Notes under the pieces: model-generated | What the model was told of the DNA's origin: nothing | Database searches by the model: none | What the model saw: only the letters and a program-made list of their open reading frames with translations | Part shown: piece by piece, positions 3,613 through 32,146 of the stretch | How the letters are laid out: each line of letters begins with the position of its first letter | How positions within the stretch are numbered: the stretch's first letter is position 1 | Virus record (IMG/VR): IMGVR_UViG_3300017727_000075 | Span: 1 to 32,146 of that record | DNA: 32,146 bases | DNA from: a virus | Reading direction: 5' to 3' (one strand) | Translations under genes and position numbers: made by a program

Positions 3613-3713
3613 TTTGTTTTATTTTTTAATGATTCTACTTTATTTTCTAAATATTTTTTAAGCAAGATTTCGTTTTTCTCCTGCTCATTTGTTTTTTTTA
3701 ACTTAACTGCCAT
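3588..3713 (-). CDS. Small basic protein of 41 aa between connector and fibre
   Basis: An ATG inside the last codons of the connector gene opens a 41-codon frame starting MAVKLKKTNEQEKNEILLKK and ending at 3588, inside the fibre gene. It overlaps both neighbours (16 bases upstream, 25 downstream), a pattern typical of coupled phage genes. The peptide is rich in Lys, Glu and Asn, probably helical, with no signal peptide or membrane segment. I do not recognise a family. It bridges the 85-base gap between connector stop and fibre start, and its translation may carry ribosomes to the weak TTG start of the fibre. Confidence 0.6.
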   Translation of the reverse strand: MAVKLKKTNEQEKNEILLKKYLENKVESLKNKTNWQHLQDN

Positions 3714-4204
3714 CCACCAAAATTTGCTGAGTCGTCTGGATATATGTCTGGAAAACTATTTGCATAGTATTCAGGAAAGTTTGCTGCTGCATTATCTTGT
3801 AAATAATCAATCAGTCTGTTACTAAAATATTGAGCAGTCGTTCTTTCTTTTTCTATTAAAAAGTCTACTTCGTTTTTATCAGCATTAACTGCATTTTCAG
3901 AAGTGTGTTTGTATATGCCATTATTAGAAATTGAATAGGCAGCGAAAGGAAGATATTCTACCATTGCCCAATGACATAAACTTGGTTTTATATAATCTGT
4001 CACTAAAGTCAAATAATGACCTGCTAAATTGTTATTAGCAATTTTAGTTTCAAGTTGATTATATAATTCAGTTCCTAAAAATCTTTGTATTTGAATTTCC
4101 TGTGCAATAAAAATATATTGAATAAATTTATCTGTATCAATATTTCCATTAGCTGATGTGAACCTTACTAAGTCGTCTCTGTTTATAAATAATACCTGTG
4201 CCAT
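3698..4204 (-). CDS. Head-tail connector protein (DUF6712-like)
   Basis: A 168-aa protein with the pattern I know from Bacteroidota phage head-completion proteins. The N-terminal part has FINRDDLVRFTSANGNIDTD followed by a helix with IQRFLGTELYNQL (residues 38-50). The centre has IKPSLCHWAMVEYLPFAAY, and the end of the domain has EVDFLIEKER. The C-terminus is Pro/Tyr/Asp rich and finishes with NFGGWQLS. Family members are thought to sit under the portal as an adaptor in the neck. It lies ten bases after the portal gene, which fits that role. Assignment is by remembered family pattern and position. Confidence 0.75.
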   Translation of the reverse strand: MAQVLFINRDDLVRFTSANGNIDTDKFIQYIFIAQEIQIQRFLGTELYNQLETKIANNNLAGHYLTLVTDYIKPSLCHWAMVEYLPFAAYSISNNGIYKHTSENAVNADKNEVDFLIEKERTTAQYFSNRLIDYLQDNAAANFPEYYANSFPDIYPDDSANFGGWQLS

Positions 4205-4214
4205 AGTTTAAATT

Positions 4215-6227
4215 TTATTTTGGGTATGCTCCTCTATTAGGCATATTTTCAGGAGCTGTTGCTGCCTGTTTTGAACCTCTAGGATTTCTGTTATATGTTT
4301 TAGGAATAGTTCTAGTCTTTTTATAATTAGAAAGATTTTCAGATGGCTCAGTATTGCTTTCTAATCTGTATAAAACTTTTCTCCATTTATGTCTGCAATA
4401 AATGCCTCCTTTAAATTTAAATAAATCGTAAGCTCTACCTTTATGACCTAACTCTCTGTTTACACCCTCTCTGCTTGCTCTATCAATATCTTCTAAAGTC
4501 CATACAATACCTGCTCTAGCCATGTCCATCATATTTGCACAAAAGTCTCTTTGTGTTTTACTTGGCTTGTTTGATCCTATTGCATAAGTGTATCTTATCT
4601 TATATAATCCATTTTTAGAATCTAAGTCACTATATGAACTACCTTTCTTTTTAGAATCTATTTCATCAGCAAGTCCTAGCAGTCCTTTGATTTTAGAAAG
4701 AGTACTTTTTTTCTCATTTATAAGGTAGTTTGCCCAGTCCTCATTGTCAATATCTTCATCGTTGTCAATTTCATCAACAAAAACATAATTATCACTCATT
4801 TTCTCACCTGCTTCTGCTAGAATACCTAAGATGTTTTTAGTTTCCTCTTCATTTAAATCATCTTTAGTCAAACTCATAGACTGTGGGTAGTCATCATGTG
4901 ATTCACATGGCATATACCAAGTTTTTCCATCTTCGTCTTTATGTGTATGTGAACCTTTACAACCTAACTTCTCGGCTTGCTCCTCAGCTTCTTCAGGAGT
5001 TTCAAAAACAAGTTTGCCATCTATTTTCTTTAAATCTACCTCTACTTTTTCTTCATCTATATCTTCTTGCTTTATTCCTGTTTCTTCTTCAACTTGATCG
5101 TCTGTTAAATCAGTATCTTCATCCATAAAGTCTAATGGTTTAAGAGTTTTGAAGTAAAGATTAAGAGCTATGTCATTAGTTGTTAAAAGGTCATCTAAAG
5201 CATCAATAACAATGTCCTGAGCAGGCTTAATAACGATGTTTAAGAATAAATCGGTAGCTGTTTGTATTTCATCAGCATTATTCCCTAGTCCTCCTCCAGA
5301 TTCTCTAATTCCTAGTAAAAGAGGAGAAGTAATTCTGTGACCTACCATTAATTTCTTAACACACTCCTCAGCTAAATAAGCATAATGTTCTGGAGCATTG
5401 TTTAGTGATATATCTTCAACAGTTGTAGCAGATTCTTGATTAGAATTAAAGGCAACTATTACTTTGTCACCAATAGAACCTGTAAGCTTGCCTAAGATGT
5501 CGTTTTTTATTTGAATTTGTTTCTCTTTGTCAGGTACTCCATTGTTAAAATTAACAACTTTAGTTCCTGAGAAAGAATTTTGTGTCTCATTGATTAAGTA
5601 TGCTGAAATTTCTTCTTCTAAAAGTGCATAAGGCATTGAAGCAGCATAGCTAGGTAGGCTATAATAGTGAAATCCAACAACGTATTTTTTGACAATAAAT
5701 ATTTCATTTAACTCTTTAGATGTCCCAAATACAGGTATTCTTTTAAGTTTATCGTTTCTGTTGTAGTCTTTCCAGTCAGGGTGGTAGTAATAGGCATCTA
5801 TTTCGCCCTTATCGTTGCATTTCTCGGCTCTTAAAGTTTGTCTTGGGAAGTAGGTTAGCTTGCTTATTTTTCTCTCTGTATTATAAGTTACTTGAAACGC
5901 TCCTTCTCCTAAAATTACAAAGTCTTGTACTACTCTAAATAGGTCTTTATTTTTAAGTAATGATCTCATCTGTGCATACTGCTCTGGTTTTTCGCTAGAA
6001 TCAGTAGCATCTATTCCATGACCATAAACAAAATTGGTAACTCCATTTAAAATAGCATGGTTAGTAGTTGAACCAATATATCTGTCTATGACATATTGAT
6101 AGTAATCGTTATTATCTCCAATGGAGACAAAATCTTGGTTTCTTTCTTCATAAACTCTTGGTGCTTCGTAAGAGTTAAGATTTAAAATGTGAATGTCGCT
6201 TTTATGCTTCATAGAATATAAATTCAT
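4215..6227 (-). CDS. Portal protein with long C-terminal extension
   Basis: A 670-aa protein. Residues 15-360 look like a phage portal: HILNLNSYEAP near the start, then YIGSTTNHAILNGVTNFVYG (50-69), VILGEGAFQVTYN (104-116), RITSPLLLGIRESGGGLGNN (298-317) and a helical stretch to about 350. An acidic linker follows (365-400). Residues 407-447 form a small Cys/His module with C423, H427, H429, C441 and H444, possibly metal binding. Residues 545-622 form another domain (IRYTYAIGSNKPSKTQRDFC, then GHKGRAYDLFKFKGG and C611/H613). The portal forms the dodecameric vertex for DNA packaging. M6 at 6212 is an equally good start and would shorten the overlap with the upstream gene from 26 to 11 bases. 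The gene lies far from the large terminase, which is unusual. Confidence 0.8.
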   Translation of the reverse strand: MNLYSMKHKSDIHILNLNSYEAPRVYEERNQDFVSIGDNNDYYQYVIDRYIGSTTNHAILNGVTNFVYGHGIDATDSSEKPEQYAQMRSLLKNKDLFRVVQDFVILGEGAFQVTYNTERKISKLTYFPRQTLRAEKCNDKGEIDAYYYHPDWKDYNRNDKLKRIPVFGTSKELNEIFIVKKYVVGFHYYSLPSYAASMPYALLEEEISAYLINETQNSFSGTKVVNFNNGVPDKEKQIQIKNDILGKLTGSIGDKVIVAFNSNQESATTVEDISLNNAPEHYAYLAEECVKKLMVGHRITSPLLLGIRESGGGLGNNADEIQTATDLFLNIVIKPAQDIVIDALDDLLTTNDIALNLYFKTLKPLDFMDEDTDLTDDQVEEETGIKQEDIDEEKVEVDLKKIDGKLVFETPEEAEEQAEKLGCKGSHTHKDEDGKTWYMPCESHDDYPQSMSLTKDDLNEEETKNILGILAEAGEKMSDNYVFVDEIDNDEDIDNEDWANYLINEKKSTLSKIKGLLGLADEIDSKKKGSSYSDLDSKNGLYKIRYTYAIGSNKPSKTQRDFCANMMDMARAGIVWTLEDIDRASREGVNRELGHKGRAYDLFKFKGGIYCRHKWRKVLYRLESNTEPSENLSNYKKTRTIPKTYNRNPRGSKQAATAPENMPNRGAYPK

Positions 6228-6558
6228 TAGTTGAGGTCGTGGTTGTGTACTCTCCAGAATTAACAGTAAATGTGCTTATTGGTGATTGATTAGTGCAAAA
6301 GATTCTTCCCCTAAAAACTTCTTTTTGGTATCTTGTTATACTTAATGTGTAAAAATTATTTTCCTCTAAACCTGTAAAGAAATCACTAAACTGATACCAA
6401 TATTTATCTAAAGTAAACTCGTCAGTAAAATTGTGAGAATAAACATTCTTATTTTCAGAATCACTAGTTATGTTTACTGCATAAGTAGTATTGGTGCTAT
6501 ATTCTCTAGGAATTACTTTTATTGTCTGTAATGTATTCACATCCCTTAGTATTATCAT
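6202..6558 (-). CDS. Small beta-rich virion-associated protein (118 aa)
   Basis: The 118-aa protein has alternating polar and aromatic residues throughout, with YWYQFSDFFTGLEENNFYTL near residues 53-72 and VFRGRIFCTNQS after it, then a Thr-rich tail. This suggests a beta-sandwich. I recognise the pattern as a conserved protein of Bacteroidota siphophages, always in the capsid/portal region, but know no demonstrated function. It is the first gene after the terminator at 6575-6607 and overlaps the portal start by 26 bases, so it is probably translated together with the portal. Confidence 0.6.
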   Translation of the reverse strand: MIILRDVNTLQTIKVIPREYSTNTTYAVNITSDSENKNVYSHNFTDEFTLDKYWYQFSDFFTGLEENNFYTLSITRYQKEVFRGRIFCTNQSPISTFTVNSGEYTTTTSTNEFIFYEA

Positions 6559-6574
6559 AACTTAATTTTTAAAT

Positions 6575-6607
6575 AAAAAGGGGTGACTCGTTAAAGTACC
6601 CCTTTCT
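6575..6607 (-). terminator. Rho-independent terminator after the tail tube gene
   Basis: On the minus strand the sequence forms AAAGGGGT, a 13-base loop and ACCCCTTT (6605-6577), followed by a T-rich run. It lies between the tail tube stop (6647) and the next start (6558) within the structural operon. Its probable effect is partial termination, so that the abundant capsid and tail tube proteins are made in excess of portal and connector. Confidence 0.75.
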
Positions 6608-6646
6608 AACCTAAACAAAACTTAATGAAAAGAAACCTATCGTTTT

Positions 6647-7195
6647 TTAGCTATTAGTACCTACTACTATTGTTTCAGTTGCACTTGACAAGCCTGCAAA
6701 AGGATTAGCCAATGTTGCACCTGATATAAAATTAGCAGGAAGTTTTTCTTGTGCTGTAAGTGTTAAAGTGTATCCACTTAAATCACCCATAGCTGTTCCT
6801 GTAGCAACTGTTCCTCCAGTTACTTCAGCTCCAAACTCAACACCCATCAAGAAACCATTTCCGTTGTTGTCAACGACTGCTACTTGTGGTCTTCCGTAAG
6901 CTAATAGCTTTATTTGTACATTATCTTCTTTACTTAATTTAGTAAGATTTAGAGTAAGGACTTGTTCAAAGAAAGTCGTTCCTGTTTCTCTTGAGCTTGT
7001 TATTGTTTGCTCTAAAGAACTACCTCCTTTTAAATCGTACTCGTATGCTGAGAAAGTTCCACTTGCATCTGTTATTTCATCTGCTGTGTATGTTATTGTT
7101 CCCAGTCCACCAAAGTCAACAAAGAAAACCTTTTGTATCCCCCCTACTACATCTTTACATGGGACTGCTCTACCTGCACTTAAATTACATGACAT
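6647..7195 (-). CDS. Major tail tube protein (probable)
   Basis: The 182-aa protein starts MSCNLSAGRAVPCKDVVGG, then has a beta-rich body with YEYDLKGGSSLEQTITSSRE (52-71), FFEQVLTLNLTKLSKEDN and a Gly/Thr-rich second half. Length, beta content and the position immediately after the major capsid protein and just before a strong terminator fit the tube subunit of a long non-contractile tail, of which hundreds of copies are needed. I recognise the N-terminal CK-DxxGG pattern from Bacteroidota phage tail tube candidates. A decoration or head-fibre protein is the main alternative. Confidence 0.6.
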   Translation of the reverse strand: MSCNLSAGRAVPCKDVVGGIQKVFFVDFGGLGTITYTADEITDASGTFSAYEYDLKGGSSLEQTITSSRETGTTFFEQVLTLNLTKLSKEDNVQIKLLAYGRPQVAVVDNNGNGFLMGVEFGAEVTGGTVATGTAMGDLSGYTLTLTAQEKLPANFISGATLANPFAGLSSATETIVVGTNS

Positions 7196-7235
7196 ATTTA
7201 TTTATTTTAAAAGGTTAAACTTTATTTACTTACTA

Positions 7236-8183
7236 TTAAGCGTATAATACTACTTCGCTCCCTATTCCGTATTGAATACCTGCTTTCCATCTCATAATGA
7301 ATCTAACATTTTGTGATCCATCAATGTCTTGCATATCAATAATTCGAATCTCGTTCATATCTGAAAGCAAACCGACACCAAAATATAAATTTGATGACTG
7401 AGCAGCTACTGCTTTGTTAGCAGGCATACCTGGAGAGTGGAATAATTTAATTCCATCAATAGTTAAAGGTACTCCGTTGTACCAAAGTGTTCCTTTGTTG
7501 TCAATACCTGAACCTGCACCTACTAAGCCTAAAGCTTGAATGTAGAATCTTAAAATATCAGTTCCTATATAAACGTGCATATCTTCTTTTTCGTAAACAG
7601 TTGCAGGAATAGCAGCTACTATTTTTTGTAATTCAGCAATTACATTTGCAGCATTAATTCCACCACCTACAGCAGCAACATCAATTACATCTCCGTCAGC
7701 AGCAAATAAAGTTGTAAATCCATCAAACTCACCTGTGTTTCCGTTAGTTCCGTTCCAAATAACTTGCTCATATTTGTCTGCAACTTTAGCAGCAAATTGT
7801 GTAATGATAAATTCTTGGAATGAAGCAGGTAAATCTTGATTTAACACAGAATAACCCATTTCAGCAGCTTGCCAAGTTTGAGAAAATTCTTTTTTACAAA
7901 ATTCAGAATTGATTTGGAACTCCTCTAAAGTAAGTACTCTTTCAGTAAGAGTTACAGCTCCTGTATCTGTGAAGTCACAGGTTGCATCTTTAATAAAGTT
8001 TGAATCAAATGCTCCTTTCTGGATGACATATTTGTAGTCAATGTTTGGCATAATTGTTACACCTCCATTGTCTAAAGTTTTACCACTTAATAAAGCGATT
8101 GAGACATACTTATTTGCCCAAGAACCGCTAAAAGTAGAGGTAATGTTAACTGTTGTCGCTAAATCGACTTTGTGATTACTCAT
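7236..8183 (-). CDS. Major capsid protein (HK97-fold, probable)
   Basis: The 315-aa protein follows the scaffold gene by 17 bases. It has a Ser/Thr-rich N-terminus, a Cys-containing segment (CDFTDTGAVTLTERVLTLEE), a long helix-like central part (QEFIITQFAAKVADKYEQVI), then a Gly/Ala/Val-rich domain with a loop at ADGDVIDVAAVGGG and a C-terminal beta region ending IQYGIGSEVVLYA. Size, composition and order protease-scaffold-capsid are as expected for a HK97-type shell protein. The N-terminal region has no long charged delta domain, consistent with a separate scaffold. The leader upstream of the ATG is A/T-rich without Shine-Dalgarno motif. Confidence 0.75.
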   Translation of the reverse strand: MSNHKVDLATTVNITSTFSGSWANKYVSIALLSGKTLDNGGVTIMPNIDYKYVIQKGAFDSNFIKDATCDFTDTGAVTLTERVLTLEEFQINSEFCKKEFSQTWQAAEMGYSVLNQDLPASFQEFIITQFAAKVADKYEQVIWNGTNGNTGEFDGFTTLFAADGDVIDVAAVGGGINAANVIAELQKIVAAIPATVYEKEDMHVYIGTDILRFYIQALGLVGAGSGIDNKGTLWYNGVPLTIDGIKLFHSPGMPANKAVAAQSSNLYFGVGLLSDMNEIRIIDMQDIDGSQNVRFIMRWKAGIQYGIGSEVVLYA

Positions 8184-23603: not shown

Positions 23604-24087
23604 TTTTTTTTTCTTTATAATGACTTAAAGCTTTGTAAAGTCTATTGACCTGAGACTTAAATTTTATAAGTTTTTTATTTAAAATCTCAATAGAAGTTTC
23701 AGAAATAAACATCATTTGATTTATAGTTTCAATGTCATTTGTTAACATATTTATATTGTTTTCAAACAAAGTAATCTCTCTTTGAATTACTCCTATACTA
23801 CCCATAACATTTAAAACTCTATAGGTAGTATTATTTAGTCCAGTCATAGGGTTTATAGAGCTTTGTTGCTCTTCAATTAAATATGAATTTTTAAGTTCAT
23901 TTAATCTTGATCTAGCTGACTGAACTGAAATAGTTTTTATAACTGACAGTCTTGTAATTCTTGAAATATCAGAAGCAGATAAAGGCTTCTCATTTCTTTT
24001 CATTATATCAAGTATTCTTTCTCTGTCGCTTTTAAATTCTTGTTCTTGATTTATTAGTGAATCGTTTCTGTTTATAAGTGTTTCCAT
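23581..24087 (-). CDS. Winged-helix protein with C-terminal coiled coil (168 aa)
   Basis: A 168-aa protein. Residues 21-80 (DRERILDIMKRNEKPLSASD and ISRITRLSVIKTISVQSARS) form a winged helix-turn-helix ending in a basic wing (RLNELKNSYLIEEQQ). Residues 105-160 are heptad-like and probably form a coiled coil for dimer formation. No exact family recognised. Its position between SSB-like and DnaA-like genes suggests a part in replication or transcription control of this cluster. Confidence 0.6.
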   Translation of the reverse strand: METLINRNDSLINQEQEFKSDRERILDIMKRNEKPLSASDISRITRLSVIKTISVQSARSRLNELKNSYLIEEQQSSINPMTGLNNTTYRVLNVMGSIGVIQREITLFENNINMLTNDIETINQMMFISETSIEILNKKLIKFKSQVNRLYKALSHYKEKKNERFNSN

Positions 24088-24089
24088 AA

Positions 24090-24725
24090 TTAAAAAGGTA
24101 AATCGTTAGGTTCATCATTATTCATGTCATCTTCTGAAATAGTTTCAGCATTGATGCCATTTTTCATTCTCCACTCTGAAGAAGTTTTTATTGTTTCTTG
24201 TAACCAAGAGGGTACTAAGTCATTGTCAGAAGTTATTGCATCTGCATTGAAATTGTCATTGTAATCCCAGATAAAGCTGTGATTGAACTGTGCAGGACAT
24301 TCAAGTCCTTTAGGTAAGGTAGAAATGCCACCTATATTAGCATAAGTCTTATCACCTACAGAGTTGTGAACTATTGAGAGCATACACTCAGCTCCTAGCA
24401 GTTTACTTAAATCAAAGGCTTGACAATCGTCAGCAGTTAATGCTTTACCTCTCCAGTTATTTAAAAAAGGAAGTAAGGCTGACTTTTCATGTAATGACTT
24501 AGTAAATTGTCTTTCTATTACATAAGGTTGCTCACCTTTGTCAGGATTAAATACTTTAGTTAAGGTCGGTAGCTCAAACTTTAATCTTATTAATGTTCTG
24601 CTTTTTTTCTCTCCCTGCCATTCTGTTGCTATTGTTCCAATGTCAATCATTGAAATACATCTTGCAGGGTAACTTCCTGAGGGAATAATGTCTCTTTTTT
24701 GAGAATTTGAATTAGTTAGTATCAT
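24090..24725 (-). CDS. SSB-like single-stranded DNA-binding protein
   Basis: A 211-aa protein. The N-terminal half (SGSYPARCISMIDIGTIATE, then RTLIRLKFELPTLTK) is a five-strand OB-like beta region of the type found in phage DNA-binding proteins of this size. The C-terminus is strongly acidic and ends EDDMNNDEPNDLPF, the D/E-rich tail with terminal LPF that resembles the DDDIPF tip of bacterial SSB, which binds partner proteins. I infer an SSB role at the phage replication fork. It is the first gene of the replication cluster. Confidence 0.6.
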   Translation of the reverse strand: MILTNSNSQKRDIIPSGSYPARCISMIDIGTIATEWQGEKKSRTLIRLKFELPTLTKVFNPDKGEQPYVIERQFTKSLHEKSALLPFLNNWRGKALTADDCQAFDLSKLLGAECMLSIVHNSVGDKTYANIGGISTLPKGLECPAQFNHSFIWDYNDNFNADAITSDNDLVPSWLQETIKTSSEWRMKNGINAETISEDDMNNDEPNDLPF

Positions 24726-24727
24726 AG

Positions 24728-24961
24728 TTATTTATTTAGGGTTTGTTTAGGTTTATGTATTTTTAAAATAGGATCGAAGTAGCCTTTATCAATTAATTGG
24801 TAGGTGATACAATCTCCTGCATTAATTGACGAATGAGGAATGTTGTTAAACCATACTGCTACATCTCCGTTTTCCATAAAAACATCAAAGACAAAGTTTC
24901 CATGTTTTGTTCTTCTAGGTAGACTTACAGATTCTATTTTTTGATTAAGTTTAATTATCAT
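24728..24961 (-). CDS. Hypothetical protein, possible small OB-like fold (77 aa)
   Basis: A 77-aa protein, beta-rich and basic, with IKLNQKIESVSLPRRTKHGN and VFDVFMENGDVAVWFNNIPH, then SINAGDCITYQLIDKGYFDP. The alternation of strands and the short loops would fit a small OB fold. It overlaps the end of the HTH gene by 11 bases and lies two bases before the SSB-like gene. No family recognised. Confidence 0.5.
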   Translation of the reverse strand: MIIKLNQKIESVSLPRRTKHGNFVFDVFMENGDVAVWFNNIPHSSINAGDCITYQLIDKGYFDPILKIHKPKQTLNK

Positions 24962-25136
24962 GAAATTGTGCTTTTAAAATTCTTAGTTGTTTACCATGAC
25001 AAGTAGCTTTAATCTTGCCAAGTTTAATTCTATTTCTTACTGTTCTATGACTTAGATTAAGGTATCTAGCAGTTTCATAAATAGTCATCTGCTTGTCTAA
25101 AGAATTAGCTTTTATTATTTGCTCGTAAACTGTCAT
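24951..25136 (-). CDS. Excisionase-like HTH protein (61 aa)
   Basis: A 61-aa protein of the MerR-like/HTH_17 type: MTIYETARYLNLSHRTVRNR (residues 17-36) with the helix-turn-helix, followed by the wing IKLGKIKATCHGKQLRI (37-53). This size and build are typical of phage excisionases and small transcription regulators. In this phage it is the natural candidate for the directionality factor of the integrase, made early in the lytic operon, or a control protein for early genes. The function is inferred from fold and position. Confidence 0.65.
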   Translation of the reverse strand: MTVYEQIIKANSLDKQMTIYETARYLNLSHRTVRNRIKLGKIKATCHGKQLRILKAQFHDN

Positions 25137-25138
25137 AA

Positions 25139-25387
25139 TTAAAATGCTAAAGGGTCATTCATTAATTTACTACTCATCTCATTCATTATTTTTCTGTCAA
25201 GAGAATCGTAGTCTATTTCTCTATGATTAATATTAGCATAAGGAGCTTCAGAAAAATAGATTACTTTATTGTTGTGAGTGTCTATCAGGTTATAAATAGT
25301 GTCGCCTATTAACTCTGCTGCTGCTTTATCACTTTCAGCATAAACATCAAACTGCACTTGAACTCGGTATCTTTTTTGTTTTGTCAT
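25139..25387 (-). CDS. Hypothetical early protein (82 aa)
   Basis: An 82-aa protein with a beta-rich N-terminus KRYRVQVQFDVYAESDKAAA (5-24), a helix (AELIGDTIYNLIDTHNN) and a C-terminal helix with DSLDRKIMNEMSSKLM. The order strand-helix-strand suggests a small ferredoxin-like domain. No family recognised. It is encoded in a run of tightly packed early genes. The start codon touches the stop of the upstream gene. Confidence 0.5.
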   Translation of the reverse strand: MTKQKRYRVQVQFDVYAESDKAAAELIGDTIYNLIDTHNNKVIYFSEAPYANINHREIDYDSLDRKIMNEMSSKLMNDPLAF

Positions 25388-25602
25388 TAGGATTGTGGTG
25401 TTAGGTTAAATAATTCTATTCTTCTTTGTAAGATTCTTAAAACCTCTGATTGATACTGGTTAGGTATTTGTTTATAACCAGAAAACCAGTTATTTCTAAT
25501 TGATAGAGGTTTTTTTCTGTAGTGTTCAGCTAATACTTTTATTAACTGTTTTTGTTGGTTGCTGTCTAATAAATTAAATAGCTGTTGAATGTTCTGTTCC
25601 AT
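25387..25602 (-). CDS. Hypothetical early protein (71 aa)
   Basis: A 71-aa all-alpha protein: IQQLFNLLDSNQQKQLIKVL (5-24), AEHYRKKPLSIRNNWFSGYK and QYQSEVLRILQRRIELFNLT. The last part could be a helix-turn-helix followed by a long helix. No family recognised. It overlaps its upstream neighbour by 29 bases. Confidence 0.5.
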   Translation of the reverse strand: MEQNIQQLFNLLDSNQQKQLIKVLAEHYRKKPLSIRNNWFSGYKQIPNQYQSEVLRILQRRIELFNLTPQS

Positions 25603-25882
25603 TAGTTACAATGTTGTTTATTACGTTAATTTTTAAAGTTTTGTATTGTTGTGGTGTAAATTCTAAAGCTTGATCGTCTTTGTCCCAAACTGTTATATGT
25701 ATGTCAAAAGAAGAAAGCCTGTTGTTGTAGTGACAATAGCCTGCAAGTTCAACAGCATAATCTCCAGACTTTAAACAATGATTATTTAAATCATAATTAG
25801 TTGAAGTGTATTCGTCTGAATAAAAAGGTAGGCTAATTGGTTGTAAATCAGATATTAATTTCGTAAATTGTATGCTTGTCAT
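25574..25882 (-). CDS. Hypothetical first early protein (102 aa)
   Basis: The first gene of the leftward lytic operon, 102 aa. It has an N-terminal helix (IQFTKLISDLQPISLPFYSD), a beta-rich middle with YAVELAGYCHYNN and IHITVWDKDDQ, and a helix near the end (FTPQQYKTLKINVINNIVTN). No family recognised. Its start is 131 bases from the TATATTTG-flanking operator farthest away and 38 bases downstream of that -7-like element. As an immediate early product, it may be a regulator or host takeover protein. Confidence 0.5.
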   Translation of the reverse strand: MTSIQFTKLISDLQPISLPFYSDEYTSTNYDLNNHCLKSGDYAVELAGYCHYNNRLSSFDIHITVWDKDDQALEFTPQQYKTLKINVINNIVTNGTEHSTAI

Positions 25883-25994
25883 TACTGTTTATTATGTATT
25901 ATTATAATTATTACACTTACAAATATATAAAAAACAGTACAATAAAAAAATAAAATATACAATTAAAATGAAAAAACCTTAAAAAACAGTACAA
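25883..25994. promoter_or_regulatory. Divergent control region with three AAACAGTA operators
   Basis: Between the early operon (leftward) and the repressor (rightward) there are 137 bases. The 14-mer AAAAAACAGTACAA occurs at 25929-25942 and again at 25981-25994 in the same orientation, 52 bases apart. A shorter match in reverse, TACTGTTT (AAACAGTA on the minus strand), lies at 25883-25890, directly at the first early start codon. Such repeats between a CI-like gene and the divergent early operon are most simply repressor operators. Confidence 0.65.
25920..25927 (-). promoter_or_regulatory. Early promoter -7 element TATATTTG
   Basis: On the minus strand TATATTTG matches the Bacteroidota -7 consensus TAnnTTTG, 38 bases before the first early ATG. 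The operator copy at 25929-25942 touches it on the upstream side, in the spacer between -33 and -7. I found no good TTG at the usual -33 distance, so the match is incomplete. Confidence 0.5.
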
Positions 25995-26019
25995 ATAACA
26001 ACAAGCAACCTAACAAAAA

Positions 26020-26688
26020 ATGAAAGATACTTATCAAAGAATTAACAAGATCATTGCTCATTATAGCATTACACTTAACACATTTTGTGAAAAACTTGGA
26101 TTAATGTCTACAGCTACTATTTCAAAAATTATTCACGAAAAAAGAACTCCTTCTCAAAAAACAATAGGAAGAATTATTAATGCTTTTCCAGAAATTAGCT
26201 ACGACTGGCTAGTTAATGGAGAGGGAGAAATGTTAAAAGCATCTAAAGAAAAAACACAAACAGTAAACAATGATGACTTAACAGTAACAAGTAAACAAAT
26301 AATAGATTTTATTTCAACTGATATTAAAAAATTTATTGACACTCGTATTGGAAAAAATACAGATAATTTTAATAATAAATTTCTTGATGTTAAAGACGAT
26401 ATACTTGACAAAATTAATATGCTAATTAAACAGTCTCACAATAACACTCTAAATACAATGAAAAAATTGTATACCCCTAAAGTTGTTGAAAATTTAATAA
26501 ATCAGGTAGACATTATAAAGAAAAAATCAATAGTTACTAATAATAATTTTTTAAAAGCTCATGACAATACTTTGGATAAAATAGATGAGTTAAAAAATAA
26601 AATAATCGAAATAAGCAAAACAATTTCAGAAATTGAAACTTATAACCTATTAGAAGAAAAAAGAAAAGAAAAAATTGATAAAAAATAA
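26020..26688 (+). CDS. CI-like HTH repressor with C-terminal coiled coil
   Basis: A 222-aa protein, the only large gene on the plus strand. Residues 5-70 form an XRE-type helix-turn-helix: RINKIIAHYSITLNTFCEKL, GLMSTATISKIIHEKRTPSQ, then IGRIINAFPEISYDWLVNGE. Proteins of this type in Bacteroidota prophages have the same YDWLV-GEG-M ending of the domain. The C-terminal two thirds are a Lys/Asn/Ile-rich helix or coiled coil, with no S24 peptidase domain, so induction would not be by RecA-driven self-cleavage. It probably maintains lysogeny by binding the operators in 25883-25994. Confidence 0.75.
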   Translation: MKDTYQRINKIIAHYSITLNTFCEKLGLMSTATISKIIHEKRTPSQKTIGRIINAFPEISYDWLVNGEGEMLKASKEKTQTVNNDDLTVTSKQIIDFISTDIKKFIDTRIGKNTDNFNNKFLDVKDDILDKINMLIKQSHNNTLNTMKKLYTPKVVENLINQVDIIKKKSIVTNNNFLKAHDNTLDKIDELKNKIIEISKTISEIETYNLLEEKRKEKIDKK

Positions 26689-26701
26689 AATAAATAGACA
26701 T

Positions 26702-26727
26702 AACGGAAAGAAGGTCTTCTGTTTTTA
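26702..26727 (+). terminator. Possible weak terminator after the repressor
   Basis: GGAAAGAA, GGTC and TTCTGTTTTTAA can form an imperfect hairpin (AGAA/TTCT core with A-T and G-T extensions) followed by a T run, 14 bases after the repressor stop. The stem is short and A/T-rich, so this is only a candidate. Confidence 0.35.
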
Positions 26728-26745
26728 ATCATAATATAATAACAT

Positions 26746-26898
26746 ATGAACTTTGAAGATTTTACAGAAGCAATTCACCACACTAAACATTTATCTAAAG
26801 AGGAAAAAGAAATTCTCTATAACAGATGGAGAAAAGAATATTTAAAAAAATTAAAAAATAAATACTCTTTTTTAAAAAATAAAAAAAGTAAAACTTAA
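26746..26898 (+). CDS. Small basic protein (50 aa) convergent with integrase
   Basis: A 50-codon ATG frame on the plus strand after the repressor. It encodes MNFEDFTEAIHHTKHLSKEE, then KEILYNRWRKEYLKKLKNKY and a Lys-rich end. The first half is probably helical and the second strongly basic. Its stop codon overlaps the stop of the integrase gene on the other strand by four bases. No family recognised. It might be a partner of the repressor or of the integrase. The compact fit between two genes supports it, but A/T-rich DNA also yields chance frames of this size. Confidence 0.5.
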   Translation: MNFEDFTEAIHHTKHLSKEEKEILYNRWRKEYLKKLKNKYSFLKNKKSKT

Positions 26899-28085
26899 CT
26901 CCAAAGTTTATTACTTGTCTGAATTAAAGTATTTAAATTAAACTTTTTATATTTTAATAAAGTCTTTGCATCTTTTATGCCTGCAATCTGCATTAATTGG
27001 TGGTCTGGCATACCTCTTTCACTCATCAAAGTTATAAATGTTCGTCTAGCTGTATGACTACCTATAAGTTTCCATTTAGGAAAAACTTCTTCTTTCTTAT
27101 TTTTACCCATGTATGAAACTTTTTTTATGCTATCATTAATCTTTAGTTCTTTACAAATCTCTTGTATTTTTAAATTAAATTTTTGACTAGATATTTTAGG
27201 CAACTTCCACTCGTATTTATCTAATAATTTTTTTAATTTATTGTGTAGAGGAATAAAAGAAGTAATTTTAGTTTTCTTAGCTTTTTTCACTATAGCTCCA
27301 TCTCTTACATCTGCTTTTTCAAACATAGAATAATCAGAAAACCTTTGACCTGTATATGCTCCGATTAGAAATAAATCTCTAGCTCTTTCATTAGATGCAC
27401 TTAACTTTGCATCTTCTAATAATTTAAGTTCTAATTCTGTTAGATGCACATCATTAGTCTCATACTTAGCTATCTTTATATTATTATAGTCAGTCAATAC
27501 TTTATAGCCTTTTTTACTGCACCATGAGATCATTGTTTTAAAAATACTCATATACCTATGCAAAGTATTGTCATTCAAATTATATTCTTTTCTCATAAAT
27601 GTTATAAATTCAGCATAAAAATTGTCATCTAAATCATTTAATTTATATTGTTTTTTATTTAGCTTTTCGAAGTGAAGAGTTTTTGTCAGCATGGCTCGAT
27701 ACTTTATAAGCATTTTTACACCTACCTCCTGCATTTCTTCTCTTTCTTTTATAAATGCTTTCCAGAAATCTTTTAAATAAATTAATTGTTGTTTTTTTAT
27801 GCTGAAATGCTCTTTTAAATGTCCTATAGTAAGCTCTTTACCATGATTATCTATAGCTTCATGTAGTTTGTCATTTATTCTGTTAAGCTTATCTGTAATA
27901 CGTCTTAGCTTATAACTATCTCCACCTCTTTTTAATTTAGGAAGTCTATTTTCTTTTGACCAGTCTTTTGGATGTATAGATAAACCAGAACTTATTTTAA
28001 AATAGTTTTTTTCTTTTTTAACATAATATCTTATATAAATAATACTTTTTTTATCTTTATTAGGTTCTTTTAAAGTAAAATACAT
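26895..28085 (-). CDS. int: Tyrosine recombinase / integrase
   Basis: A 396-aa protein. Residues 1-95 form the arm-binding domain typical of Bacteroidota integrases (IYIRYYVKKEKNYFKISSGL, IHPKDWSKENRLPK). Residues 100-200 form the SAM-like core-binding domain. The catalytic domain (215-396) has R248 (GAYTGQRFSD), a Lys-rich beta hairpin near 267-273, H344 and R347 (SHTARRTF) and the nucleophile Y379 (LLKYKKF). The usual second His/Trp position (G-H) is I370 here (IAGIKDAKTLLKY), which is odd. It integrates the phage at attP, lying just upstream of its start. The gene is on the same strand as the lytic genes. Confidence 0.9.
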   Translation of the reverse strand: MYFTLKEPNKDKKSIIYIRYYVKKEKNYFKISSGLSIHPKDWSKENRLPKLKRGGDSYKLRRITDKLNRINDKLHEAIDNHGKELTIGHLKEHFSIKKQQLIYLKDFWKAFIKEREEMQEVGVKMLIKYRAMLTKTLHFEKLNKKQYKLNDLDDNFYAEFITFMRKEYNLNDNTLHRYMSIFKTMISWCSKKGYKVLTDYNNIKIAKYETNDVHLTELELKLLEDAKLSASNERARDLFLIGAYTGQRFSDYSMFEKADVRDGAIVKKAKKTKITSFIPLHNKLKKLLDKYEWKLPKISSQKFNLKIQEICKELKINDSIKKVSYMGKNKKEEVFPKWKLIGSHTARRTFITLMSERGMPDHQLMQIAGIKDAKTLLKYKKFNLNTLIQTSNKLWS

Positions 28086-28091
28086 ATTACT

Positions 28092-28307
28092 AGGGTACTG
28101 AAAAGGGTACTGTAAATATATATTTAATTTACAATATTATTGGAATGTAATGGAAAATAAAAAGTGACAACATCTTATTTTTACCTTAAAATACAATAAA
28201 ACTGTAAATTAATATAAATAAATTCAACTCCTGCCACCCCGACTAAAACCTTTGTAAGTTATTGATTTACAGGGGTTTTGTTTTTTTAGGGTACTCAATA
28301 GGGTACT
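28092..28307. other. attP: tRNA-3'-end-like core with paired arm-type repeats
   Basis: Directly upstream of int, the octamer AGGGTACT occurs four times in the same orientation: 28092-28099 and 28104-28111 on one side, 28288-28295 and 28300-28307 on the other, each pair with a 12-bp period. Between them, 28223-28242 reads TTCAACTCCTGCCACCCCGA, which has the T-loop consensus TTCRANY followed by five and seven bases and an A, i.e. the 3' end of a tRNA gene (acceptor strand CACCCCG, as in a tRNA-Pro). A TGTAA/TTACA dyad with a nine-base spacer follows (28253-28271). This is the layout of a phage attachment site: arm, core, arm. The dyad with its T run could also work as a terminator for the lytic operon. 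Confidence 0.75.
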
Positions 28308-28319
28308 ATTATTAAATAA

Positions 28320-28424
28320 TTAGCCTATACAAACTACGTTAAAACAAACAGAGCAATAGTAGAAATAGCCATTTTGATTGCTGCCATTTATTTTCATTAC
28401 TGTTTTACATTTACTGCAATTCAT
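28320..28424 (-). CDS. Zinc-ribbon peptide (34 aa)
   Basis: A 34-codon ATG frame that starts 14 bases inside the end of the phosphoesterase gene. It encodes MNCSKCKTVMKINGSNQNGY and then FYYCSVCFNVVCIG. Two CxxC pairs (C3/C6 and C24/C27) separated by a short hairpin make a classic minimal zinc ribbon. It is the last gene of the lytic operon before attP. Similar zinc-ribbon peptides occur widely in phages without known function. Confidence 0.75.
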   Translation of the reverse strand: MNCSKCKTVMKINGSNQNGYFYYCSVCFNVVCIG

Positions 28425-29145
28425 TTTTTTTTCCTAAATCCATAAGCTCATTAATGCAGGTTTTACCACCAAAAACAACAGCACAACCAATAGCAGGCTT
28501 TTTTCCTCTTTTAGCATAAGCAAAACTATACTGGTCAAAGTCAATACCACAACCTACTTGACAACCAAATATTTTAAAGTTAGCTCCTACAAAATACTCC
28601 GTATAAGCCTGCGTGTGTAAATGTCCCTGTACTGTACTCATCAAATCAGCTTTGCATTTTGTTCTAGCTGTTCCTGCTTCTCCATGTATGTATTGCACAT
28701 TATCATAGACTACTCGGTCTTTAAACTTCCATTTAGGAGTATTTAAAACATCTTTATAAGATTTAATCCATGCCTTTGGTATATTTCCAGTAAAAGCTTT
28801 TCTTCTTATAAGTCTATCGTGGTTTCCAATAATAACATCTGCTTTTGGAAAAGCCCTATACCACCTAGCTATTCTTTTTATTGCGAACTCTAATTCTTCA
28901 CCTCCACTCATTCCGTCAGGATCAGTTTCATGGTAGGAGCTAAAATGATTATCAATTAAATCTCCAATAAATATTACTTTGTTACAGTTATATTTTGCAT
29001 AGACATAACTACAATGGTCTAAATAAGAATCTTTACAAAATGGCTCATGGAGGTCTCCTATTATTAAAATACGAGATTCTTTTTTAATAATATTTTGATA
29101 AGCAATTTTTTTATTGCCTTTAATTCTCGGTCTAAAATCTTTCAT
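28411..29145 (-). CDS. Calcineurin-like metallophosphoesterase
   Basis: A 244-aa protein with the full set of metallophosphoesterase motifs: GDLHEP (D31, H33), GDLIDNH (D62), GNHDR (N108, H109, D110), HGE (H154) and GHLHTQ (H175, H177). These bind a dimetal centre. Phage members of this group have been proposed to act as nucleases or phosphatases on nucleic acid ends; the substrate here is unknown. It is placed in the late region between the holin cluster and attP, away from replication genes. The start overlaps the 44-aa gene as ATGA. Confidence 0.9.
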   Translation of the reverse strand: MKDFRPRIKGNKKIAYQNIIKKESRILIIGDLHEPFCKDSYLDHCSYVYAKYNCNKVIFIGDLIDNHFSSYHETDPDGMSGGEELEFAIKRIARWYRAFPKADVIIGNHDRLIRRKAFTGNIPKAWIKSYKDVLNTPKWKFKDRVVYDNVQYIHGEAGTARTKCKADLMSTVQGHLHTQAYTEYFVGANFKIFGCQVGCGIDFDQYSFAYAKRGKKPAIGCAVVFGGKTCINELMDLGKKNELQ

Positions 29146-29276
29146 TTACCCTGTCCTTTATATCTTTTCAAATAATGTTTTGAGGATTTGAGTTTGCTAG
29201 ATTTATTTTTAGAATGTATTCCTTTTCTTTTTTTTGATTTAGATTTATATACTGTTAAAATTTGATTCTTAGCCAT
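29142..29276 (-). CDS. Small strongly basic conserved phage protein (44 aa)
   Basis: A 44-codon frame whose ATG overlaps the holin stop (TAATG) and whose stop overlaps the phosphoesterase start (ATGA). It encodes MAKNQILTVYKSKSKKRKGI, then HSKNKSSKLKSSKHYLKRYK and GQGK. The pattern KRKG-HSKNKSSKLKSSK-Y-K-Y-GQG is one I know as strongly conserved in many marine phages, often near lysis or structural genes. The composition suggests binding to nucleic acid or to the virion interior. No function is known to me. Confidence 0.85.
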   Translation of the reverse strand: MAKNQILTVYKSKSKKRKGIHSKNKSSKLKSSKHYLKRYKGQGK

Positions 29277-29671
29277 TATTTTCTTTTAATTTTCTCAAAT
29301 GACCTACCTCCAAAATAAGCTGAAATAACAGTAATTAAAGTGAGCTGTAAAAGGTCAATCCATGTGTCTTTAACTTCAAAATTTAAAACACCTGCATCAA
29401 TAAAAATCATTAATACTGTGGAGATGACTAGGAATAACAAAACTATTGGTCTAACATTTTTAGAAAGCCATGAGCCTTTATTATCACTAACCCATCTTTC
29501 AGTTACGTTTTGTTGCATATCAGCTTCAGCATCTACAAATACCTTAGTCATTTCATTCTCAAACTTTGCTCTATCTTCTTTTGAGAAAGTATGTTTAGCT
29601 ATAATGTTACTTATTTTTTCTGCTACTCCACCTGCTGCTCCACCAAATAGTTTTAATAATATATTTTTCAT
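29276..29671 (-). CDS. Holin, three-TM family
   Basis: A 131-aa protein with the pattern of the Holin_3TMs family: a Gly/Ala-rich N-terminal helix (LLKLFGGAAGGVAEKISNII), a charged amphipathic region (EDRAKFENEMTKVFVDAEAD, then TERWVSDNKGSWLSKNVRPI) and two strong membrane helices (VLLFLVISTVLMIFIDAGVL and WIDLLQLTLITVISAYFGGR) with the ending FGGRSFEKIKRK. It would form lesions in the inner membrane to release or activate the amidase. It lies in the lysis cluster. Confidence 0.85.
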   Translation of the reverse strand: MKNILLKLFGGAAGGVAEKISNIIAKHTFSKEDRAKFENEMTKVFVDAEADMQQNVTERWVSDNKGSWLSKNVRPIVLLFLVISTVLMIFIDAGVLNFEVKDTWIDLLQLTLITVISAYFGGRSFEKIKRK

Positions 29672-29768
29672 AAATTAATTTTAAAGCAATTATTGATAAT
29701 ATAATTGTGTAAATGTTTACATGGCTTTCACCACAAATGCCAAGTAAGTGTCTAAGTGTTTCTATCAT
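29607..29768 (-). CDS. Small membrane protein (53 aa) overlapping the holin start
   Basis: The ATG overlaps the stop of the 101-aa gene (ATGA). The product starts MIETLRHLLGICGESHVNIY and continues with the hydrophobic segment TIILSIIALKLIY, then a tail encoded by the same DNA as the first 21 codons of the holin gene (65-base overlap). The N-terminal ETLRHLLGICGE-H-N-- is a pattern I recall from short membrane proteins in lysis regions of marine phages. One membrane helix, short polar N-terminus. It may be a holin accessory or antiholin. Confidence 0.65.
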   Translation of the reverse strand: MIETLRHLLGICGESHVNIYTIILSIIALKLIYEKYIIKTIWWSSRWSSRKNK

Positions 29769-30070
29769 TTTAGTTCTTTTAGTATTGTATATATTTCTTC
29801 TAATTCTTTTTCCATGTACTCAATTTTCAAATCTTGTCTGCCGTCTGCAGGCAAAGCACCTAATTCTCCTCTTGGCCATTTTATTCTAAACTCATCATTT
29901 AGACTTTGATTATATCGTAGTCGTGCTACATCCATTTGTAGTGTAGCAATTTCTGCAGTCAAAGTGAACCAAACACCTGTTATAGATAATATGCCAAATA
30001 TTATACCTATTAAACTTTTTATGTCTAATTGTATTTTAGAATTTTCTGCTAATTCTATTGGTTTTGTCAT
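29765..30070 (-). CDS. Single-TM protein of lysis cluster (101 aa)
   Basis: A 101-aa protein with a polar N-terminus (MTKPIELAENSKIQLDIKSL), one membrane helix (IGIIFGILSITGVWFTLTAE, residues 21-40), a helical stalk (IATLQMDVARLRYNQSLNDE), a short segment with FRIKWPRGELGALPADGRQD and a C-terminal coiled coil (MEKELEEIYTILKELK). An N-in type II topology would place the C-terminal part in the periplasm, similar to an i-spanin or antiholin build. Function not known. Confidence 0.6.
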   Translation of the reverse strand: MTKPIELAENSKIQLDIKSLIGIIFGILSITGVWFTLTAEIATLQMDVARLRYNQSLNDEFRIKWPRGELGALPADGRQDLKIEYMEKELEEIYTILKELK

Positions 30071-30075
30071 ATTAT

Positions 30076-30156
30076 TTATGATAAAGGTAAAACTGTGAAA
30101 GAGCCTATAATTAATATGATAATTAACATAAACATAAACTCTATCAGCTTGTTCAT
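30076..30156 (-). CDS. Tiny membrane peptide (26 aa)
   Basis: A 26-codon ATG frame whose start overlaps the stop of the 98-aa gene as ATGA. It encodes MNKLIEFMFMLIIILIIGSF and TVLPLS, essentially one membrane helix. It fills the 82-base gap between the 98-aa and 101-aa genes almost exactly. Size and composition are like phage lysis accessory peptides. Real, judged from coupling and position, but too short to exclude chance. Confidence 0.5.
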   Translation of the reverse strand: MNKLIEFMFMLIIILIIGSFTVLPLS

Positions 30157-30449
30157 CTTTTATATATTTTATCTTCGATTTTATCTAGTCTTTTATCTTT
30201 AGCTTCTATTTGTCCTTCAAGAAATTCTATTCTTTGCTCAATAACTTCTAATGACTGTAAAGGAGGAAGCTTTTTAGCCACCTCTATTTCTTGTTTATTA
30301 AGTTCTATTTGTTTAGTTAAAGTGGAATAGGTCATAGTTAAGCTGATAATACCTCCTACTACCATTATAATAGTTTTTAAATCTAAGTTTAGATCAGGTT
30401 TGCCATCTCCATCAATATCTACATTGACTTTTTTATTTTCAATTCCCAT
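30153..30449 (-). CDS. Single-TM protein with Ca-loop-like motif and coiled coil (98 aa)
   Basis: A 98-aa protein. Residues 11-23 contain DIDGDGKPDLNLD, a DxDxDG loop as in calcium-binding EF-hand-like or dockerin-like motifs (D11, D13, D15, D19; position 12 is Leu, with D23 next to it). A membrane helix follows (TIIMVVGGIISLTMTYSTLT, 26-45), then a long coiled coil (KQIELNKQEIEVAKKLPPLQ and IEFLEGQIEAKDKRLDKIED). It overlaps the amidase by 11 bases. Build and position suggest a lysis regulator or spanin-like part. If the N-terminus is cytoplasmic, calcium binding would be unexpected, so the loop might have another role. Confidence 0.65.
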   Translation of the reverse strand: MGIENKKVNVDIDGDGKPDLNLDLKTIIMVVGGIISLTMTYSTLTKQIELNKQEIEVAKKLPPLQSLEVIEQRIEFLEGQIEAKDKRLDKIEDKIYKR

Positions 30450-30867
30450 TACTTATTTCTTTGTATTCTTCCTTAGCATCAAAACATGGACAGACTTTCT
30501 TATTAGTAAAATCTTTATGACCATATACTGTAGCTTCAGGATATTTTTCTTTTAAATTTTTTAATAGTTTCTCTAATGATTCTTTTTGTTCAGGTGTTCT
30601 AGTATCTATCCATTTGTCCATCGTTCTATCCATCCCTCCTATGTAACATATACCTATAGAATTTCTATTGTGACCTTTACAATGAGCACCTATCTTTCTT
30701 TCTGGTCTAGCATCTTGTATCTCACCACTAAGAGTAATAACATAATGGTAACCACAATCTGACCAACCATTTCCAGTCACGTGCCACTCTGTTATATCTT
30801 CTACATCAAACTCCTTATGTTCTGGAGTTGCCGAACAATGAACTATAAGCTTCTCTATTTTTCTCAT
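30439..30867 (-). CDS. N-acetylmuramoyl-L-alanine amidase (endolysin, T7 lysozyme-like)
   Basis: A 142-aa Amidase_2/PGRP-fold enzyme. The zinc ligands are H10 (LIVHCSAT), H117 (YGHKDF) and C126 (KVCPCFD). Y40 (CGYHYVI) and K124 correspond to the catalytic Tyr and Lys of T7 lysozyme. AHCKGHNRNSIGICYIGG (61-78) is the usual substrate-groove strand. It cuts the amide bond between muramic acid and L-Ala in peptidoglycan. There is no signal peptide, so release depends on the holin. It follows the 46-aa membrane gene with an ATGA overlap. Confidence 0.92.
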   Translation of the reverse strand: MRKIEKLIVHCSATPEHKEFDVEDITEWHVTGNGWSDCGYHYVITLSGEIQDARPERKIGAHCKGHNRNSIGICYIGGMDRTMDKWIDTRTPEQKESLEKLLKNLKEKYPEATVYGHKDFTNKKVCPCFDAKEEYKEISNGN

Positions 30868-31004
30868 AGTTTCTTAGTCTTTTTTATTGTATAGACAATA
30901 GTGCAGATAAGAAGAATTATCTTCAACCATGTTTCTATTTCAGTCATTGTCAAAGCCAAAACGACAGAGTTTAAAAAATAAATCTTCATATCTGCAGAAT
31001 CCAT
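30864..31004 (-). CDS. Small membrane protein (46 aa) upstream of amidase
   Basis: A 46-codon frame starting two bases after the stop of the 88-aa gene and ending with ATGA at the amidase start. It encodes MDSADMKIYFLNSVVLALTM and TEIETWLKIILLICTIVYTI, then a Lys-rich end. Two hydrophobic segments are visible, with a basic C-terminus, as in small holin-like proteins. I recall very similar short proteins (TD-ET-LK-ILL---I-YTI-K) beside endolysins in marine phages. It may be a holin or pinholin partner. Confidence 0.75.
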   Translation of the reverse strand: MDSADMKIYFLNSVVLALTMTEIETWLKIILLICTIVYTIKKTKKL

Positions 31005-31006
31005 AA

Positions 31007-31273
31007 TTAATTGATATACTCGTCTACTAACGGAGCTTCTTGTTTTTCTTCTATAGGCTCAAAACTTCCATCTTTTAAATCAATGTTGATTTTACCATAA
31101 GTTTCTTCAAGTTCCTTTTTAAATTCTTCTACTTTTTGCTGTGCTTGATTAAGTGCATGAAGCAAATGGAATTTTTGATTCTCTAAAGCTCCTATGTCAT
31201 GTAAGGCTTTCGATTGCGTGTTTACATGACCTTGTAAAGTTTCTAATTCTTCTTTTTTGATTTTGTTACTCAT
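31007..31273 (-). CDS. Coiled-coil protein after the tail fibre (88 aa)
   Basis: An 88-aa charged helical protein: KIKKEELETLQGHVNTQSKA, LHDIGALENQKFHLLHALNQ, AQQKVEEFKKELEETYGKIN, then DGSFEPIEEK. The GDIGxLExxKxxLLxxxxxxxxEx-pattern and the end KINIDLKDGSFEPI are familiar to me from short proteins next to phage structural genes, sometimes annotated as prefoldin-like coiled coil. It may be a fibre chaperone or a minor virion protein. It lies 33 bases after the fibre stop. Confidence 0.65.
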   Translation of the reverse strand: MSNKIKKEELETLQGHVNTQSKALHDIGALENQKFHLLHALNQAQQKVEEFKKELEETYGKINIDLKDGSFEPIEEKQEAPLVDEYIN

Positions 31274-31306
31274 TTTTATTTATTTAAGGGTTAATTTTTA
31301 TTTGTT

Positions 31307-32146
31307 TTATTTACAATTACATTTGTTTTTTAAATCATCTATTTCTGCTTTTAGCTCTTGTATTGCACCTACTAATAATGGCACTAATTTTGACTGGTCG
31401 ATACCTTGATAATCTGGAACTTGTCTAGTATCTTTGACTGCTTCAGTTTTTAATACGTTTTCAGTCCATTCCTCTTTAGCTTCTGTTATTACATTTCCAT
31501 CTTCGTCTAATTCTTCTTCTATTGCAGGATGTAAAACATCTTCATAAACAGCAGGACTTACTTCATATTCCTCATCTTGCATTGCATCTTTTTCTCCAGT
31601 AATAGCTTCAGGCACTATCTCTTGTACTTCGTGAGCTAAGAACCCATCTACTGTTTTGTCTGCATCTGCTATAAAGTTAAATCTACTAGGTTTTAATTGA
31701 CTTACTCTATCTAAAGCACCTGTCATTGAAACTACATTTTCTTTTAACCTATAATCAGAAGATGTGTTATATGAAACTGCTGAAGTTCCATTTTGTGAAA
31801 TAGAACCAATAACACTTGAACCTAAATAAAATAGTGTATAGTTAGAGCCTGTTGCTGTACCAGTAGCGTGTCCAATACGAAGTATTGAATCTGTACCTGC
31901 ATCAAATTTAAAGCCACCAGAAGTTGGGTCTCCATCTGTTCCAATTAAAACATTCCCCCCAGATGTTATACGCATTACATTTGTAGCATTTTGAGATTTA
32001 TCAGCACCTGTTGTTAAAGTAGCAAAAACAAATGAACCATCTACAAGAGTTAATCTTGCTGCAGCTACACTTGCTATAATTCCTCTATTTACTCCACTTG
32101 TATTTAAATAAGTATTTTGACATAACTCAATAGAATCATCAGCTTT
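31307..32146 (-). CDS. Tail fibre, C-terminal part with S74 self-cleaving chaperone (continues to position 1-3612)
   Basis: This is the C-terminal part of the 1,442-aa fibre; the section 32024-32146 repeats bases 1-123. From residue 1293, SDYRLKENV begins an intramolecular chaperone domain (Peptidase_S74, as in endosialidases and phage GA-1 neck fibre), with the Ser-Asp pair at 1293-1294. Later motifs are FLAHEVQEIVPEAITGEKDA and YQGIDQSKLVPLLVGAIQEL, and the end is a coiled coil (LKAEIDDLKNKCNCK). The domain trimerises, folds the shaft and is released by cutting just before the Ser. About 150 residues would be lost on maturation. An acidic insertion (EEELDEDGNVITEAKEEW) lies between helix and Lys-Val-Leu strand. 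Confidence 0.92.
   Translation of the reverse strand, partial: KADDSIELCQNTYLNTSGVNRGIIASVAAARLTLVDGSFVFATLTTGADKSQNATNVMRITSGGNVLIGTDGDPTSGGFKFDAGTDSILRIGHATGTATGSNYTLFYLGSSVIGSISQNGTSAVSYNTSSDYRLKENVVSMTGALDRVSQLKPSRFNFIADADKTVDGFLAHEVQEIVPEAITGEKDAMQDEEYEVSPAVYEDVLHPAIEEELDEDGNVITEAKEEWTENVLKTEAVKDTRQVPDYQGIDQSKLVPLLVGAIQELKAEIDDLKNKCNCK
32024..32146. repeat. Terminal direct repeat, right copy
   Basis: Identical to bases 1-123. See left copy. Confidence 0.95.

Follow-up and report, generated by a model that had tools for sequence, protein, structure and literature searches.

What kind of site occupies positions 28,092–28,307 of the viral record IMGVR_UViG_3300017727_000075, where short repeats stand on both sides of a tRNA-like segment next to an integrase gene? 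An earlier note on this 32,146-nt stretch (hereafter the window) had read the segment as the attachment site (attP) of a phage, and the paired arm sites, the tRNA 3'-end core, and the adjacent arm-binding integrase all support that reading. The pairs appear to be bound by the adjacent integrase, whose residues 1–42 would form an exchangeable module together with the arms, and they enclose a tRNA-Pro core that is followed by a terminator of the phage; on the strength of the sequence comparisons presented below, we assign a probability of about 90% to this interpretation.

The phage and its integrase

Both ends of the window share 123 identical bases, and the sequence closes into a circle. A very long tail-fibre-like reading frame spans the contig ends (1–3612 and 31,307–32,146), and the terminal overlap indicates that this gene is where a circular genome was opened to give the record. 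The gene content (integrase, repressor-like HTH protein, terminase, amidase, and tape-measure-like protein) is that of a temperate siphophage, and the attP probably stems from such a phage of flavobacteria.

In lambda Int, an N-terminal sheet reads the arm sites and the other domains read the core, which is the basis of the bivalent-integrase model. The same organization is apparent in the tyrosine integrase of the window (int; 26,895–28,085, minus strand; 396 aa), which matches Arm-DNA-bind_5, Phage_int_SAM_5, and Phage_integrase (PF17293, PF13102, and PF00589; all above cut-off) and was assigned to the PHROG integrase, so that the putative attP adjoins an enzyme with both arm-binding and catalytic domains. 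The model of the full-length integrase aligned with lambda Int (1Z1G, 5J0N; Z 13.8, rmsd 18.0, 309 aligned residues), and the model of the N-terminal domain by itself had no significant match in the PDB. At residues 368–372, the protein carries AGI(K/R)D instead of the LGH of most tyrosine recombinases, which includes the last catalytic His/Trp; every relative whose sequence extends to this region shares the variant, apart from L062 with TGI.

Integrases in INPHARED and PLSDB were only about 24–37% identical, and genome scans with integrase peptides gave no matches; the output of a catalytic-domain profile scan was dominated by a low-complexity pattern. In Cellulophaga phages, int is not accompanied by an intergenic attP, and their integrases were unusable as a second test set.

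Two pairs of probable arm sites

The octamer AGGGTACT occurs on the plus strand at 28,092–28,099, 28,104–28,111, 28,288–28,295, and 28,300–28,307, which confirms the two pairs with equal 12-bp spacing described in the earlier note. The proximal pair (28,092–28,111) is located 6 bp from the start codon of int, and the distal pair (28,288–28,307) lies across the core from int. The repeats flank the core on both sides, an arrangement that characterizes the attP of arm-binding tyrosine integrases. Outside low-complexity sequence, AGGGTACT is the only octamer in the window that forms two equally spaced pairs within 400 nt (when any octamer was admitted, one low-complexity run did so as well), and no such case was encountered in 100 dinucleotide shuffles. 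The only other exact copy of AGGGTACT in the window is intragenic (24,209). Including their flanks, the proximal and distal pairs constitute a 36-nt direct repeat with 81% identity.

Two further elements accompany the pairs. CTAATTAT (28,316–28,323, minus strand), just outside the distal pair and conserved in all eight attPs compared below, is a possible site for an accessory protein; ATATATTTAC (28,112–28,121, minus strand), just outside the proximal pair and also conserved, may be the −7 box of the int promoter or an accessory site. Additional copies of CTGTAAAT that had been listed earlier do exist, but only the copy within the stem of the dyad discussed below is conserved in all relatives. 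The copy at 28,110 consists of the end of an arm site and its conserved flank, and that at 28,202 is retained in the two closest relatives only. A small, previously unlisted open reading frame with two CxxC motifs (28,321–28,425, minus strand; MNCSKCKTVMKINGSNQNGYFYYCSVCFNVVCIG) ends at CTAATTAT by the distal pair; some relatives have different genes in its place.

A search of IMG/VR for AGGGTACT-N4-AGGGTACT returned 37 contigs, none of which had a detectable relative of the window integrase. The two that were inspected in detail (L012 and L016) proved unrelated, and many others represent tandem arrays.

A tRNA-Pro-like core followed by a terminator

The core comprises an identity block at 28,223–28,243 (plus strand) that resembles the 3' end of a tRNA-Pro gene, with the T-loop TTCAACT, the T-stem CCTGC, the acceptor strand CACCCCG, and A73; the segment TTCAACTCCTGCCACCCCGA occupies 28,223–28,242. 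The T-loop and acceptor features noticed in the first reading of this DNA are thus those of a tRNA 3' end. A complete tRNA was not found, and the missing 5' half, which had also been remarked upon, is what an intact attP in a closed circle is expected to show. Over 22–24 nt, the core is 91–92% identical to tRNA-Pro 3' ends annotated in other phages, which agrees with the earlier proposal that tRNA-Pro is the likely target; the core is the same in five relatives up to TTCAA.

A search for a host attB or a lysogen among approximately 85,000 prokaryote species genomes gave no match with a pattern that demanded, beyond the tRNA, four positions that may stem from the phage, so that an empty attB could escape detection. 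The sequence to seek at the 3' ends of tRNA-Pro genes in genomes of Flavobacteriia is CTCCTGCCACCCCGA.

The tRNA 3' end is followed by an intrinsic terminator on the plus strand (28,244–28,287), in which a 17-pair stem precedes a T-run (28,244–28,280). The search for terminators found this one against 0.2 expected; its z score is −2.98, and it is conserved in all eight attPs. It holds the TGTAA/TTACA dyad that the first reading had implied to be the core-type site of strand exchange. The dyad itself is real, being part of the 17-pair stem, but its role as crossover site is improbable: although its conservation across the eight attPs and across tRNA targets would suit such a site, a stem with a T-run is the signature of a terminator, and the dyads in an integrated element point in the same direction.

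This element (L071, coordinates 2107–7632) resides in a Bacteroidota chromosome and adjoins an intact tRNA-Leu gene. The 19-bp block that is identical between its attL and attR is the end of the tRNA (TCCCACTTCGGGTACGTTA), and each end of the element has its own, different TGTAA/TTACA dyad outside that block, in two different terminators. Since the repeat common to attL and attR coincides with the tRNA end, and the dyads are not the same at the two ends, the dyad does not behave as a core-type site. The element shares the layout of the window attP and has arm-like repeats, with two copies of GGGTATAAATA just past the terminator and copies of AGGTATAAA near int. It was recovered by a dyad-pattern search whose matches were otherwise mostly due to chance, and its integrase was undetected with the profile of the window integrase family. 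By analogy with this element, the most plausible role of the window's dyad is that of a stem in a tRNA terminator supplied by the phage, and the crossover would fall inside the tRNA end of the core. One of the relatives of the window phage (L044) has a tRNA-Ser-like core, yet its terminator loop is the same as in the others, which is expected if the terminator travels with the phage.

A conserved layout with five arm classes

Seven phages from public metagenomes in IMG/VR encode integrases that are 61–95% identical to that of the window, and all of them possess an intact attP with the same plan; together with the window, they form a set of eight attPs. The 12-bp period is present in all 16 arm pairs, and the distance from the distal to the proximal pair is 204 bp, or 203 bp in L044. 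The arms themselves fall into five different sequences, and both pairs of a given phage always belong to one class. In the orientation of int, the arm sequences are AGTACCCT in the window, TTACCAC in L039 and L062, TTGCACC in L040 and L041, ATTCAAC in L042 and L043, and CTTACACT in L044.

Concerted replacement of arms and integrase tip

The contrast between variable arms and conserved surroundings is sharpest among the closest relatives. Over approximately 7.3 kb (24,070–31,364), the identity between the window and L049, which lies on one contig with L039, is 97.7%. The two arm pairs and codons 1–42 of int (27,960–28,085, minus strand) differ at 66 of 166 positions (40%), compared with 111 of 7124 (1.6%) elsewhere. 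The contig L050 (of phage L043) differs from the window at 61 of 166 positions in the arms and codons 1–42 and at 86 of 2509 elsewhere. The distal pair is located about 180 bp away, across the conserved core, yet it changed in concert with the codons at the start of int.

These comparisons also bear on the idea that a transcription factor, such as the phage repressor or an excisionase-like protein, uses the pairs as operators, in which case they would not be arm sites. The location of the proximal pair at the start codon of int and the proximity of genes for an HTH repressor (26,020–26,688) and an HTH_17 protein (24,951–25,136) are compatible with operators. However, both genes are 94–100% identical in the window and L039 despite the replacement of the pairs, int codons 1–42 alone among the nearby loci vary together with the pairs, and there is no pair at the repressor promoter, which makes operators a highly improbable explanation.

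The assignment of the pairs to the integrase is further supported by the covariation between arms and protein. Arm class matches the integrase tip in all eight phages. The identity of residues 1–42 is highest for exactly the three pairs of phages that share their arms (83, 83, and 81%; next highest 69%), and this pairing is the sole top scorer when the eight phages are combined into three disjoint pairs in all 420 possible ways; in a control with residue 43 to the end, 239 of the 420 pairings were as good as the observed one. Variable columns concordant with arm class are concentrated in residues 1–42 (18 of 32, against 16 of 154 in the remainder; p = 5.5e-8). The residues that separate the arm classes best are 10, 17, 19, 28, 30, 31, and 34, and all but residue 10 fall on two strands (14–22 and 27–37) that are predicted with fair confidence. 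Residues 1–42 are predicted to form the strands with which the arm-binding domain reads DNA, and their codons represent a putative exchangeable cassette for arm specificity. The class with AGGGTACT has a single member, and its link to the integrase tip is suggested by position and concerted change.

Origin and consequences of the proposed exchange

Did the arms drift through point mutations that were compensated by changes in the integrase, or was the cassette imported by recombination? Two distant islands that change together are not a product of simple crossovers, and the comparison of the window with L043 gave no clear synonymous excess in the cassette (p = 0.41), both of which fit drift. 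However, the cassette has an excess of synonymous differences in two comparisons, that of the window with L039 (p = 0.0003) and that of L039 with L043 (p = 0.002). This makes import by recombination the better explanation for at least some of the events. Moreover, the arm change of about 40% is embedded in DNA that is 98% identical. In addition, L039 and L062 share their arms and an identical 20-nt distal pair, and their residues 1–42 are 81% identical, although the integrases are otherwise divergent (46% identity in the SAM domain and 67% in the catalytic domain) and the tRNA cores differ; at the DNA level, 139 of 171 positions are identical in the islands, compared with 744 of 1140 in the rest. 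Drift without recombination of the cassette is therefore unlikely, and we infer from the synonymous excess in two of three phage pairs that recombination was involved.

In the reading preferred here, the N-terminal domain of the integrase would bind each pair of 12-bp period, and its other domains would act on the tRNA-Pro 3' end as core; after insertion, the phage-supplied terminator would re-terminate the tRNA. Residues 1–42 and both arm pairs would change together, probably by repeated recombination that spares the core, the spacer, and the remainder of the integrase. Because the proximal pair sits at the start of int, integrase bound to it probably represses its own gene. An overlap of this kind is common, and one was shown for IntS of KplE1 (PMC2951348).

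Tentatively, arm specificity may be a horizontally exchanged allele whose diversity is maintained by selection, so that phages using the same tRNA carry orthogonal arm systems. If so, the integrase of a co-resident or superinfecting relative would neither excise nor jam the prophage, a situation that resembles heteroimmune operators.

Comparison with known integration systems

Lambda lacks an arrangement of its arms in two identical direct pairs, and its core lies outside tRNA genes. The window shares with lambda the bivalent integrase fold and a core flanked on each side by arm sites (1Z1G, 5J0N). Closer parallels exist among the cluster K mycobacteriophages (CrimD, Anaya, and Adephagia; PMC3203893), where short arm repeats, arranged in two pairs, flank a core of the tRNA/tmRNA 3'-end type, and a terminator again separates the core from one of the pairs. 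In these phages, the arm consensus varies with residues 17 and 19 of the integrase N terminus, and Pixie and Tweety have a common core but different arms (PMC3203893). However, close relatives in cluster K differ at one or two arm positions and have inverted P3/P4 sites (PMC3203893), whereas all pairs of the present set are direct, there are five arm sequences, and the 42-residue tips are swapped between integrases that are otherwise 98–99% identical. Moreover, one arm class is common to phages with different targets.

Cluster J phages possess paired direct arm sites of 10 bp, similar to the pairs of 12-bp period described here, and their closely related integrases use the same attB with two kinds of N-terminal arm-binding domains (PMC3706429). 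The authors of that study saw no systematic arm difference that matched the N-terminal difference, whereas the match is complete among the eight phages compared here. The order of arm-binding, core-binding, and catalytic domains and their Bacteroidota-type Pfam families are shared with the IntCTnDOT subgroup (CTnDOT and NBU1; PMC8138268); the comparison is one of domain content alone, and the window integrase differs in being a phage enzyme that uses a tRNA gene.

The literature searched, which covered few subscription journals, yielded no complete concerted replacement across several classes among phages that are nearly identical; mycobacteriophages provide milder cases. Whereas arm sites are commonly deduced from nothing but repeated sequence, the five integrase tips, each with its matching arm sequence, represent natural swaps in an almost constant background, which nominates about seven putative specificity residues (listed above) in a DNA-reading domain of the beta-sheet type, offers a source of orthogonal integrase–attP pairs with one common core, and makes it testable why phages diversify their arm sites yet keep repressor and core. 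The 61-aa HTH_17 protein (minus strand) is a candidate excisionase and is unchanged between the window and L039 despite their wholly different arms.
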